Source: Rhizobium sp. PP-CC-3A-592
GTDB lineage: Bacteria > Pseudomonadota > Alphaproteobacteria > Rhizobiales > Rhizobiaceae
Assembly (NCBI RefSeq): GCF_003217095.1
Contig: NZ_QJSR01000002.1
Location: 806,001-870,000, forward strand
DNA: 64,000 nt
Direction of reading: 5' to 3'
The notes beneath the pieces are model-generated. The model worked only from the letters and a program-made list of their open reading frames with translations. It was not told where the DNA came from and ran no database searches. A program made the position numbers and the translations under genes. Numbering within the stretch: the first letter of the stretch is position 1; the number at the start of each line of letters is the position of its first letter. Shown here one piece after another: positions 51,758 to 56,960 of the stretch.

Positions 51758-52018
51758 ATGGCAAGACCTCCGGCACCTCCATCGCTCGATGGCCTGAAGC
51801 GCCAGATCGCGCGGCATCGCGAGCGACGCGCCGAGACCGGTGGCAGCCTGTTCGTCCGCGAAACCTTCCTGCTCGACCGCCCCGCCGCCCGGGAGAAGGC
51901 GCAGGAATGGTTCGAGCATTTCCCAAAAGCCGCCTATTGGACCGAGGTCGAGAGCTGGCGTCAGCTCGAGGGCGATCGGATCGAGTTCACCATGCGCCGG
52001 CTGCCGACGGCGGACTAG
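51758..52018 (+). CDS. Small hypothetical protein
   Basis: 86 aa, beginning MARPPAPPSLDGLKRQIARH and ending FTMRRLPTAD. It is basic at the N-terminus and has an amphipathic helix (REKAQEWFEHFPKAAYWTEVE). No family is recognised. ATG at 51758 has AAAGGG upstream and the codon use is like that of its neighbours, so it is probably real. It overlaps trmL by 4 bases in a convergent arrangement. Confidence 0.65.
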   Translation: MARPPAPPSLDGLKRQIARHRERRAETGGSLFVRETFLLDRPAAREKAQEWFEHFPKAAYWTEVESWRQLEGDRIEFTMRRLPTAD

Positions 52019-52482
52019 CCCGGCGACAGATCGGGCGACGTCTGCCGCAGGGCTTCGCCCGTGATCATTGCCACCGACATGGCAAGGTTGAGCGAGCGTT
52101 GGCCTTCCACCATGGGAATGATGATGCGTGCATCCGCTGCTGCATGGACCGTGTCCGGTACGCCGGCACTTTCGCGGCCGAAAAGCAGCGTATCTCCGGG
52201 CGCGAATGTGAAGCGGGTATAGGGCTGGGCCGCCTTGGTGCTCGCCAGCACCAGACGCCGGCCGTCGCGCTGGCGCGCTTCCTCGAACGACAGCCAGTTG
52301 ACGTGCCGCGCCAGCGTAACCGAGGCGATATAATCGAGGCCGGCGCGCTTCAGGTTCCTGTCCGACAGGTCGAAGCCGGCGGGCTCGATGATGTCGACGC
52401 CGAGGCCGAGGCAGGCGGCAAGGCGCAGGATGGTGCCGGTATTGCCGGCGATATCGGGCTGGTAGAGGGCGATGCGCAGCAT
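52015..52482 (-). CDS. trmL: tRNA (cytidine/uridine(34)-2'-O)-methyltransferase TrmL
   Basis: 155 aa SPOUT-class methyltransferase that 2'-O-methylates wobble position 34. Family pattern: ALYQPDIAGNTGTILRLAACLGLGVDIIEP, LLFGRESAGVPDTVHAAAD and RIIIPMVEGQRSLNLAMSVAMI, the trefoil-knot S-adenosylmethionine site. Length is typical. ATG at 52482 is close to the preceding rightward leader region; the gene is leftward and stands alone. Confidence 0.93.
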   Translation of the reverse strand: MLRIALYQPDIAGNTGTILRLAACLGLGVDIIEPAGFDLSDRNLKRAGLDYIASVTLARHVNWLSFEEARQRDGRRLVLASTKAAQPYTRFTFAPGDTLLFGRESAGVPDTVHAAADARIIIPMVEGQRSLNLAMSVAMITGEALRQTSPDLSPG

Positions 52483-52631
52483 GCGAGCCGGTTACGGCAT
52501 CCGTGCCGAATTGGCAACAGCGGCGAGCCGGTCTTCCGGCGCGGCGAAAAAAGCCGTCATGCGATCTGGTGCGGGCCTGAAAAATTGGTTAAGAGGTTGC
52601 CAGCGCCCACACGAACCGTACGGAGGATTGC

Positions 52632-52703
52632 ATGGATATCTCAGTGACCGTCAACCTCCGGGTGACCTGGCTCCGATCCCTTCGGACCGCATCTCACCCC
52701 TGA
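52632..52703 (+). CDS. Candidate leader peptide (upstream ORF) before the ABC exporters
   Basis: 23 codons (MDISVTVNLRVTWLRSLRTA and SHP) with a strong GGAGG five bases before ATG 52632 and a TGA at 52701-52703. It is isolated in the 459-base region before the exporter gene at 52942, where no other ORF is plausible. Arg, Val, Leu, Ser and Thr predominate. Translation of short leaders often controls drug-exporter or Mg-transporter genes, but the role here is inferred. Confidence 0.45.
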   Translation: MDISVTVNLRVTWLRSLRTASHP

Positions 52704-52871
52704 CCGGTTCGCGCCGCTTCTTCTCCGTTTCCGGATATTCCAGCGCCGCTCGCCAAGGTCTGATCGTGCTTTTCCCGGCATCGATCTCCGTGACGTCAGC
52801 CTGACGCCCATCGCGGCTTCGTTATCCCGAATGCGGACGCTTCCGCCTTCCCAACGCCCTCTTTCTCGCCG

Positions 52872-52910
52872 CGATCCCTGGGGATGACCGTTTCCGGTCG
52901 TCATGGATCG
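52872..52910 (+). promoter_or_regulatory. Composite stem-loop in the leader of the first ABC exporter
   Basis: CGATCC (52872-52877) pairs with GGATCG (52905-52910), enclosing GACCG (52886-52890)/CGGTC (52895-52899) with a TTTC loop. A short T-run follows further on, before the GGAG ribosome-binding site of the 52942 gene. Together with the 23-codon ORF upstream it would make a plausible attenuator. Confidence 0.4.
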
Positions 52911-52941
52911 CTCCGGAATCTCCTGTTTTTGGAGTCTGATC

Positions 52942-54798
<1,857 letters not shown>

Positions 54799-54828: not shown

Positions 54829-54988
54829 GGGGCTGCCCCTCACCCTAGCCCTCTCCCTGCGCGCGGGAAGAGGGGACGCGGTTGCGGTATCTCGTTTCCG
54901 TTGTGGCTTGTTCGCGACGTGCCGTGGCTCGCTTGTGGTCTCTTCTCCCCGCCTGCGGGGAGAAGAGACCGGCAGGCAGATGAGGGGC
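54829..54988. repeat. REP-like palindrome between the two ABC exporter genes
   Basis: About 160 bp bounded by CCCCTCA (54835-54841) and its complement TGAGGGG (54981-54987). The right half holds a perfect 14-bp stem GTCTCTTCTCCCCG / CGGGGAGAAGAGAC (54938-54951 with 54956-54969) with a 4-base loop. It fills most of the 293-base spacer between the two exporter genes. The form is that of common rhizobial GC-rich intergenic palindromes. Confidence 0.75.
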
Positions 54989-55091: not shown

Positions 55092-56960
55092 ATGTTCCTG
55101 CGCCCCGTCTTCCGCTTCTTCGAAACCTGGATCCAGCCCTTCGCATACCGCGAGGCCTTGCAGCCGCCGCGGGGGCTTCTCGGGTTTATCTGGTTCTATA
55201 TCGCCCAAGCCAAGGCGCCGTTCATTGCCATGCTGGTGCTCGGCGGCCTGAGTGCGGCGATCGAGGCGGCGCTGTTCTGGTTTGTCGGGCGGCTCGTGGA
55301 TATTCTGGCGACGGTCGATCGCGCTGCCGGATGGGAGGGGTTGCTGGCGACGCATGGGCGGGAGCTGGTGGGGATGCTGCTCCTCATCGGCATCGTCAGG
55401 TTCGTCGTGACACTTGTCATGGCGCTGGTCGATCAGCAGATCATTACCCCCGGTTTCTACAATCTGGTGCGCTGGCAGTCCTATCTGCATGTCGCGCGGC
55501 AGTCGGTGTCCTTCTTCCAGAACGATTTTTCCGGGCGCATCGTCACCAAGGTGTGGTCCGGGGGCCAAGCAGCCGGCGACGTGGTGACCTCGCTGATGGA
55601 GAGCGTCTGGTTCGTCGGGATCTATTCGGTCTCGACACTGGTGCTGGTCGGACAGCTCGACCTGACGATGGCGGTGGTGGTGTTCGTCTGGCTGGTCGTC
55701 TTCTCAGGCCTCGCGCGCTATTTCGTGCCGCGCATCCGGGCGCATTCCAAGGAGACGGCGGAAGCGTCTTCGATGCTGTCGGGCCGCATGGTCGATGCCT
55801 ATTCGAACATCCAGACGCTGAAGCTGTTCGGTCGCGACGAGGAAAACGACCGCTACATGCGCGACGGCTTCGACACCTTTCAGGCGACGACGCTGCGGTT
55901 TACCCGGTTCATCACCGGCGTGCGCGCCTCGATGGCGCTCCTGTCCGGCATCATGATCGTGACGATGGCAGCCCTTGCCGTGCACCTGTGGCTGGCCGGG
56001 GCGATCAGCTCCGGCGCCGTGGCGTTTACGCTGGCACTGGTTCTGCGGCTGAATTTTCTGCTGTCGCGCATGATGGTGCAGTTCAACGGCATCATGCGCA
56101 ATATCGGTACGATCCAGAATGCGGCCGACATGATCGCCCAGCCGATCGACCTCGTCGACAGGCCGCAGGCGCCCGATCTCTTGGTGCGCCAGCCGGGCAT
56201 CGCGTTCGAGGGGATCCGCTTCCACTATGGGCGCGAGAAGGGTGTCATCGACGATCTGTCGCTGACGATCCAGCCGGGTGAGAAAGTCGGTATCGTCGGG
56301 CGTTCGGGCGCCGGAAAATCGACGCTCGTCAACCTGCTGCTGCGCTTCTACGATCTCGAAGGCGGGCGCATCACGATCGACGGGCAGGATATCGCCGGCG
56401 TGCGGCAGGAATCGCTGCGGGCGCAGATCGGCATGGTCAGCCAGGATACGTCGCTGCTGCACCGCTCCATCCGCGACAACATCCTCTTCGGACGGCCGGA
56501 CGCCGACGACCAGGCGCTGCGGCTGGCCGCCGAACGGGCGGAGGCGCTGGCCTTCATCGAGCGGCTGGAAGATCAGCGTGGGCGCACCGGCTTCGACGCG
56601 CATGTGGGCGAGCGCGGCATCAAGCTCTCGGGCGGGCAGCGCCAGCGTATCGCCATTGCCCGTGTCATGCTGAAGGACGCGCCGATCCTCGTTCTCGACG
56701 AGGCGACGTCGGCGCTCGATTCGGAGGTTGAGGCCGCTATTCAAGATAATCTGGACGCGCTGATGAAGGGCAAGACCGTGCTGGCCATCGCCCACCGCCT
56801 CTCGACCATCGCCGCGCTCGACCGGCTGATCGTGATGGATGCCGGCGCGATCGTGCAGGATGGGACGCATGCGCAACTGCTCGCTGAGAAGGGGCTCTAT
56901 GCCGAGCTCTGGTCGCGCCAGTCGTGTGGTTTTCTTGCCCGGGATGACGCCGCGCCGTAA
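55092..56960 (+). CDS. ABC exporter, fused permease and ATPase (second of two paralogues)
   Basis: 622 aa, same architecture as the gene at 52942: six TM helices (about 40-330), Walker A GRSGAGKSTLV, signature LSGGQRQRIAIARVM, Walker B LVLDEATSALD and H-loop AHRLST. Segments such as DFSGRIVTKVWSGGQAAGDVV and TSLLHRSIRDNI match the paralogue closely. ATG at 55092 (MFLRPVFRFFE) is preferred over the longer frame. Ancestral gene duplication is the simplest explanation. Confidence 0.9.
   Translation: MFLRPVFRFFETWIQPFAYREALQPPRGLLGFIWFYIAQAKAPFIAMLVLGGLSAAIEAALFWFVGRLVDILATVDRAAGWEGLLATHGRELVGMLLLIGIVRFVVTLVMALVDQQIITPGFYNLVRWQSYLHVARQSVSFFQNDFSGRIVTKVWSGGQAAGDVVTSLMESVWFVGIYSVSTLVLVGQLDLTMAVVVFVWLVVFSGLARYFVPRIRAHSKETAEASSMLSGRMVDAYSNIQTLKLFGRDEENDRYMRDGFDTFQATTLRFTRFITGVRASMALLSGIMIVTMAALAVHLWLAGAISSGAVAFTLALVLRLNFLLSRMMVQFNGIMRNIGTIQNAADMIAQPIDLVDRPQAPDLLVRQPGIAFEGIRFHYGREKGVIDDLSLTIQPGEKVGIVGRSGAGKSTLVNLLLRFYDLEGGRITIDGQDIAGVRQESLRAQIGMVSQDTSLLHRSIRDNILFGRPDADDQALRLAAERAEALAFIERLEDQRGRTGFDAHVGERGIKLSGGQRQRIAIARVMLKDAPILVLDEATSALDSEVEAAIQDNLDALMKGKTVLAIAHRLSTIAALDRLIVMDAGAIVQDGTHAQLLAEKGLYAELWSRQSCGFLARDDAAP

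Follow-up and report, generated by a model that had tools for sequence, protein, structure and literature searches.

The window, a stretch of 64,000 nucleotides from Rhizobium sp. PP-CC-3A-592 (genome G000, family f1), carries a pair of ABC exporter genes on the forward strand that are preceded by a short upstream open reading frame (uORF), and thereby raises the question of whether, and by what kind of mechanism, this uORF governs the exporter operon. A first-pass annotation had read the arrangement as a leader-ORF control element, and comparison with related leaders indicates that this reading is probably correct. We slightly favour, at somewhat better than even chances, a uORF-dependent attenuator in the 5' leader of the exporter operon.

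The exporter operon and its surroundings

The first exporter (TMD-NBD, 618 aa) was originally called from 52903. The actual start probably lies at 52942, given the conservation of MFGWFE-like N-termini among the orthologues and a GGAG sequence ahead of this position, such that the gene extends from 52942 to 54798 (+ strand). The second exporter, likewise of the TMD-NBD type, occupies 55092-56960 (+ strand) with a start picked by eye, and family searches for it ran from 55098. Both proteins carry the Pfam domains ABC_membrane and ABC_tran. No match to MsbA or another named NCBIfam exporter was obtained (best MsbA score 346.2 bits, cut-off 602), and both proteins stay below the curated cut-off of each of the 25 NCBIfam families among the matches listed. 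The gap between the two genes (54835-54975) contains inverted repeats, e.g., CTTCTCCCCGCCTGCGGGGAGAAG, which we take to resemble dispersed rhizobial repeats.

Upstream and divergently oriented lies a tRNA methyltransferase gene (52015-52482, - strand) that is termed TrmL-like only, because its score of 121.7 bits falls under the cut-off of 190.6. Near its start, an interrupted palindrome, GTGCCGAATTGGCAAC, at 52503-52518 is unchanged in six aligned genomes and possibly represents an operator or promoter part of the divergent gene; the form TGCC-N-GGCA occurs within 420 bases in 26 of 98 loci, at varying places. Sequences matching the stretch 52520-52546 occur at other places in G001 and G022, and 52486-52542 is covered by a weak match to naRNA4, far under its cut-off.

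A short upstream ORF is conserved ahead of orthologous exporters

The uORF starts with ATG, comprises 23 codons, encodes MDISVTVNLRVTWLRSLRTASHP and ends with TGA (52632-52703, + strand). Its Shine-Dalgarno (SD) sequence GGAGG (52622-52626, + strand) is identical in the six aligned genomes of the genus and is separated from the ATG by five bases. The claim of a 23-codon ORF with a good SD ahead of the exporter was thus borne out. At the DNA level the leader is kept in six of seven genomes of the genus, the own one included, and the seventh, G006, has a diverged uORF.

For a wider comparison, 110 orthologous loci were assembled from the best 30 loci of 101 related genomes and from 80 named loci found by a scan with a 14-sequence exporter alignment, the latter being taken among the matches listed (at least 80). 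As uORF we accepted an ATG-initiated ORF of 10-30 codons with a GGAG-type SD situated within 400 (or 700) bases of the exporter. Among the matches listed, a uORF is present by this rule in 96 of the 110 loci within 400 bases (14 are missed) and in 98 within 700 bases, the remaining twelve being L122 and L123, which stem from odd AT-rich assemblies, L026, L031, L032, L034 and L036-L041. A lack of conservation upstream of orthologues, which the first-pass annotation had named as counting against its reading, was therefore not seen. A subset of 98 loci omits twelve of the best 30, namely two close congeners in which the uORF is present and ten more distantly related loci, all of which lack a uORF within 400 bases, two showing one when 700 bases are considered. 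In this subset the rule is satisfied by 93 of 98 loci vs. 29 of 1960 dinucleotide shuffles (about 1.5%). According to another version of the rule 94 of the 98 loci contain a uORF, mostly of 17-18 codons (58/94).

A second collection of 98 further loci, from which L190 (too short) and L142 (partial match) were excluded and in which some close loci are near copies of training loci, relates the presence of the uORF to the identity of the exporter: the uORF occurs in 23 of 24 loci at an identity of at least 68%, in 23 of 33 at 62-68%, in three of 13 at 58-62% and in nine of 28 below 58%, i.e., in 46 of 57 loci at or above 62% and in only 12 of 41 below. Some loci without a uORF by rule carry the leader further upstream, as found with the covariance model described below. 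In G024 (L033), a 19-codon uORF is located about 480 bases before the exporter, ahead of an ORF of 101 residues without Pfam match.

The peptide itself is a different matter. Over 39 independent pairs, pN/pS amounts to 0.69 in the uORF frame vs. 1.03 and 0.79 in the other two frames; in the same pairs it is 0.58 for codons 2-7 (bootstrap 0.39-0.94) and 0.75 from codon 11 to the end. From these values we conclude that the peptide is constrained at most weakly, while SD, start and stop position are kept. A conserved stalling peptide is therefore unsupported. The exact peptide pattern was not found outside the genus, the single match among 297 genomes being the own genome, and three short matches in G061 were rejected as they reside inside a repetitive coding region.

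A -10-like box, GTTAAGA (52588-52594, + strand), recognized by conservation only, precedes the uORF. A TA dinucleotide is present between -44 and -37 relative to the uORF ATG in 99 of 102 leaders, vs. 6-25 of 102 in eight other windows of 8 nt. Ahead of the exporter ATG there is no fixed counterpart of this box, TA occurring in 7-22 of the 102 leaders across twelve 8-nt windows from -104 to -9. A scan of the window for the sigma-70 consensus yielded no promoter, an outcome that says little for this bacterial group. Judged from the position of the box, we infer that transcription starts at about 52599-52604, i.e., approximately 30 bases before the uORF ATG. A transcription start downstream of the ORF, which the first-pass annotation had also named as counting against its reading, is not what the comparison indicates; instead, a conserved ORF with initiation signals lies between the exporter gene and a promoter that is identified through conservation only.

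Two helices embrace the start and the stop of the uORF

Comparison of the leaders pointed to two helices, P1 and P2, on the forward strand. The 5' arm of P1 (AGCG..C.CGAACCG, 52602-52618) is located just 5' of the uORF SD, with its edge at the presumed transcription start, and pairs with a 3' arm that begins at the uORF stop (52705-52718). In the six aligned genomes of the genus the last pair of P1 is lost in four and a further pair in one. P2 (52621-52660) is formed by the SD region (52621-52630) and uORF codons 7-10 (52652-52660). As P1 and P2 involve the stop and the SD of the uORF, they constitute a predicted fold which any ribosome engaging the uORF has to remodel.

Helices were evaluated by comparing pairing energies within species with those of cross-species chimeras, expressed as z, and the uORFs of the 98-locus subset served for the training, blind-scan and sliding tests, the latter supplemented with further loci. 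Among 77 non-redundant training leaders, P1 reached z -5.6 and P2 z -3.9, and six other pairings gave values between -1.1 and +1.3. In a blind scan of 1041 window pairs across 41 diverse leaders, P1 ranked first (z -5.4), followed by a hairpin upstream of the exporter (z -4.7). Fifteen pairs, some of them from overlapping windows, fell below -3.5 and two exceeded +3.5, so the scores are distributed more widely than normal ones. Sliding windows over 61 leaders placed the maximum of P1 at the stop (z -4.4 and -5.6; elsewhere -1.6 to +1.1) and that of P2 at codons 6-12, where energies reach about -11 to -12 kcal/mol (z -3.3 and -3.4) vs. -3.8 to -7.5 kcal/mol outside this region.

A held-out set of 36 leaders, non-redundant with respect to the training leaders and to each other, was drawn from 58 further loci with uORF. 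Here, P1 was recovered with z -5.5 (a value not reached in any of 5000 permutations; z -2.7 with narrower windows), covariation of P2 was weak (z -1.8) and a hairpin at -78 and -36 before the exporter gave z -3.0. Controls scored -0.6, +2.7 and -2.5, the last one concerning the P1 5' arm against a stretch further downstream, and are therefore not perfectly quiet. Permutation z-scores are inflated by sequence relatedness, against which the sliding windows, the held-out leaders and controls with natural genes serve as guards. The latter are 52 ordinary genes of the same loci with GGAG-type SD: at least six uninterrupted pairs between the SD and codons 5-14 are present in 89 of 102 uORFs vs. eight of the 52 ordinary genes.

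P1 is maintained by changes on both sides in different lineages (CGAACCG/CGGTTCG, AACGCC/GGCGTT, AACACC/GGTGTT, AACCCG/CGGGTT and TCGAGA/TCTCGA), its register shifts between leaders and it is weak in some of them. P2 persists when its place relative to the reading frame shifts, e.g., in L019, L028 and L035 (judged by eye). In an alignment fitted with the covariance model (78 matches), which leans towards the structure, 78.8% of cells pair vs. 71.6% in shuffles and at most 55% in slid versions, and 76 cells are changed on both sides vs. 35 in shuffles. Nine model pairs show double changes, which is not clearly above the 7.7 in shuffles, and for P2 the fitted alignment contains only three doubly changed cells, its SD side hardly varying. 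On the evidence of these comparisons, the RNA structure of the leader is better conserved than the peptide.

A covariance model links the leader to the exporter operon

The check by covariance model that the first-pass annotation had suggested was carried out with a model built from 33 leaders. Across 121 whole genomes of the family it identified one site each in 37 genomes (E ≤0.01), and 35 of these 37 sites are located upstream of the exporter on the same strand within about 750 bases, the exceptions being G025 and G362. By handle, seven of the 37 matched genomes contributed to the model, and further ones may be nearly the same as named genomes. The only strong site of the own genome is the leader (67.5 bits), the next one scoring 19.9 bits. 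Taken together with the comparisons above, this ties the uORF, the -10-like box, P1 and P2 to the exporter operon as judged from sequence conservation. In more distant family members the leader is situated some 300-740 bases from the exporter and was for this reason missed by the first uORF rule. Several of these loci (L242-L246, L249, L250, L253 and L254) have a small, probably related ORF, called at about 105-180 codons, that separates leader and exporter; a motif like KL.AWAL..G.R.P..RRG.LPDVD recurs in such intervening ORFs of distant family members, and three examples gave no Pfam match.

The model is not fully sensitive within the family, since it missed G035 with its visible uORF. In a sample of 199 genomes from the order, matches are confined to G000 and two others. 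Beyond the family the model is not fully specific, given matches in G168, G586, G541, G538 and G301. The sites in G168 and G586 and two in G541 were judged to be coding or chance matches; the match in G301 comprises a TTG-start uORF ahead of another ABC exporter, and that in G538 (L263) a leader ORF with several histidine codons before a hisS-like gene (named by eye).

One order-wide match, in G238, precedes an ABC-F gene (NCBIfam ribo_prot_ABC_F, 254.9 bits for a fragment, cut-off 380). In the neighboring family f6, seven of 23 ABC-F relatives have a uORF by rule, G575 being a further case by eye. ABC-F uORFs of 22-29 codons were noted in L268, L274, L277, L278, L283 (upstream of the match) and L266, and five of the seven share the peptide pattern R-x-R/C-G-P-V-x-A-L. 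Unlike that of the exporter leader, the ABC-F leader peptide seemingly is conserved. We regard the link to ABC-F as a lead for a translation-stress signal and not as evidence for the window.

The region between uORF and exporter

The composite hairpin of the first-pass annotation exists at 52871-52911 (+ strand; outer stem GCGATCC/GGATCGC, inner stem GATGACCG/CGGTCGTC) and begins, as claimed, approximately 168 bases after the uORF. It is specific to the genus and unsupported as the working part of the leader: the outer stem is kept in the genus, and of the six aligned genomes G002 and G003 do not possess the inner stem and G004 has it broken. With half of the aligned genomes affected, we rejected this hairpin as a general switch. 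Nor does it lie just before the exporter start, as had been stated, since with a start probably at 52942 it ends about 30 bases earlier. As a whole, the region 52590-52960 folds better than dinucleotide shuffles (z -2.6; two of 100 shuffles as good).

Closer to the gene, a small hairpin, CTCC/GGAG (52920-52934, + strand), covers the exporter SD (GGAG, 52931-52934). This brings up classical translation attenuation of the ermC or toiL type, in which a ribosome stalled on the uORF, e.g., at its start codon, would re-pair the region of the exporter SD and thereby switch exporter translation. Such a mechanism would accord with the hairpin being intact in five of the six aligned genomes, with the 77 training leaders, in which pairing of the exporter SD surpassed cross-species pairing at z -4.8, and with the proximity of uORF stop and exporter ATG (median 150 bases in 102 leaders). 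Against it, pairing in the held-out leaders is no better than between species (z +1.8) and the leaders of distant lineages reside at the larger distances given above. Furthermore, masking a modeled ribosome footprint on the uORF, be it at the start, the middle or the stop, alters the predicted accessibility of the exporter SD by about 0.01 on average in 57 leaders; with the footprint at the start codon, accessibility rises by more than 0.15 in six and falls by as much in two of them. Prediction therefore lends no support to the exporter SD being released as in ermC or toiL, the hairpin is doubtful as the switch and we consider classical translation attenuation unlikely. The layout proposed by the first-pass annotation holds with regard to uORF, initiation signals, RNA stems and conservation.

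The uORF is followed by a pyrimidine-rich, G-poor tract (52717-52735, + strand) that is rut-like or resembles a weak U-tract and was recognized by composition across 102 leaders. From stop+18 onward, eight bases show G reduced to 0.12 and T raised to 0.42. In 95 of the 102 leaders C/G increases from the stretch before the uORF to the one after it, and the density of YC per 100 is 18.6 after the uORF vs. 11.1 before it; with similar values within the uORF (17.7) and at the exporter start (18.0), a rut-like composition predicts only weakly. A weak local hairpin termed T1 (predicted, 52705-52708 pairing with 52713-52716, + strand) would be an alternative to the P1 3' arm. In the window it consists of four pairs and a poor U-tract, and a consensus scan of the window detected no intrinsic terminator. 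Terminator-like hairpins near the P1 3' arm with a score of at least 20 are found in 44 of 102 leaders, a frequency of 0.43 vs. 0.21 in dinucleotide shuffles, and comparable ratios are obtained for two further stretches of these leaders. The chimera test for T1 resulted in z -0.8 to -1.9. T1 is doubtful as an intrinsic terminator, since its roughly two-fold enrichment is not special to its place.

A translation-status attenuator as the preferred reading

The element most likely is a translation-status attenuator, for which translation of the uORF, the controlled step, its sign and the signal are inferred. We commit to a control of read-through by uORF translation because release of the exporter SD is unsupported and because a G-poor tract and, in part of the leaders, a terminator-like hairpin follow the uORF. 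Transcription would begin about 30 bases 5' of the uORF. Without a ribosome the leader would be closed, with P2 hiding the uORF SD behind the uORF's own codons and P1 clamping the 5' segment of the leader onto the stop region. A ribosome starting or finishing the uORF would have to open both helices, and the open or closed state of the domain would set how much RNA polymerase reaches the exporter. The affected step would most likely be termination in the pyrimidine-rich stretch, either by Rho or, in some species, by a weak hairpin competing with P1. As to the sign, we have chosen the version in which poor translation of the uORF allows P1 to form and favors the exporter, and brisk translation opens P1 and favors termination. 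Stalling at the start codon, which has been suggested for some uORFs that sense antibiotics, may be involved; it could do without conservation of the peptide.

Three further explanations have to be weighed. P1 and P2 might together form a stable domain at the 5' terminus, which shields the mRNA or serves as a binding site for a protein or small RNA, translation of the uORF mattering only in that it opens this domain. Control would then concern RNA stability or a ligand site. The location of the P1 5' arm at the presumed 5' end of the transcript and the better conservation of structure than of peptide would agree with this, but the recurring GGAG-type SD, ATG and stop at P1 are needless for a pure protein or RNA ligand site, and Rfam offered no match at gathering score, neither for 52400-53100 of the window, where two matches stayed far below the cut-off, nor for 12 other loci. 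We judge such a domain to be improbable.

Still less probable is that the uORF represents a self-contained small gene or small RNA, complete with a terminator, and that the exporter is separately promoted and beyond its control. The terminator-like hairpins in 44 of 102 loci would suit this explanation; on the other hand, 35 of 37 model matches combine leader and exporter on a single strand, the peptide sequence is barely constrained and the -10-like box that is fixed before the uORF in 99 of 102 leaders is without counterpart before the exporter. Very improbable, finally, is an amino-acid attenuator of the trp/his type sensing charged tRNA, or a peptide whose nascent chain would arrest ribosomes in response to a single drug: many peptides contain R-L-P, R-F-P or R-L-R near codons 8-10, which are reminiscent of macrolide arrest motifs, but inspection of the peptides by eye revealed neither a run of one regulatory codon nor a cluster of codons for a sensed amino acid, the frequent R-L-P is explained by RNA pairing because it moves with P2 when P2 shifts in frame (by eye), and pN/pS speaks against a conserved peptide near an arrest site, weak constraint still being allowed.

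For the translation-status attenuator, a bolder version appears possible though doubtful, namely a general sensor of translation capacity with a new architecture, in which the peptide would be irrelevant, P2 would lock the uORF's own SD, P1 would clamp the stop to the 5' end and ribosome traffic alone would switch. Throughout much of the Rhizobiaceae it would be a regular part of one exporter operon, and in a neighboring family ABC-F genes for ribosome protection may be served by related leaders. On this reading the module would act, in bacteria living in soil or associated with plants, as a portable reporter of antibiotics directed at the ribosome. A conserved stalling peptide is what often reveals leader ORFs that monitor translation. 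Searches relying on the peptide would miss the present class, because the peptide drifts while the RNA that hides the start and clamps the stop is kept; inside the family, the covariance model recovers roughly one such element per genome. It looks like the leader could tie exporter production to ribosome performance, which provides an exporter pair without curated name with a testable signal, translation stress, and makes available a system in which to study how transcription could be controlled by nothing but ribosome traffic.

Comparison with known leader ORFs

No report of this leader was found in the literature; the profiling tables for Sinorhizobium meliloti (PMC10117765) were outside the search and may hold the uORF. 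That study reports eleven novel ORFs from 5'-UTRs as well as seven from transport operons (PMC10117765). The trpL/peTrpL system of S. meliloti likewise features a translated leader ORF in a rhizobial 5' leader, but it is an amino-acid attenuator whose 14-codon ORF is leaderless and precedes another gene, and the cited passages do not mention a fold like P1/P2 (PMC10117765, PMC7298713).

Leader ORFs before resistance or efflux genes are shared with ermC (PMC2965389), vmlR, cplR and vga(A) (PMC12121999) as well as msrD. According to the cited section, several drug-inducible leaders are thought to stall ribosomes at the start codon, for which a conserved peptide is not needed (PMC12121999), and by analogy such stalling fits the exporter leader, too. 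What distinguishes the latter from the ermC and ABC-F leaders is that its conserved part is the RNA around the uORF SD and stop. The uORF in the whiB7 leader of actinobacteria, as portrayed there, is comparable in preceding a resistance gene and in responding to many translation stresses (PMC12121999). It differs by lineage and by its downstream gene, a regulator there and an exporter here, and the likeness is drawn without RNA structure.

From the portions of the literature cited, the closest working analogue seems to be toiL, the uORF in the topAI-yjhQP leader of Escherichia coli, which senses at least five classes of ribosome-targeting antibiotics with involvement of Rho termination (PMC12121999). 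Both are short uORFs whose translation status is proposed to reshape the leader RNA without one fixed arrest site. In toiL, as described, the uORF pairs with the ribosome-binding site of the downstream gene (PMC12121999), whereas in the window P2 would hide the uORF's own SD and P1 would close the whole uORF. Gene and lineage differ as well, and a switch acting on the exporter SD is unsupported by prediction.
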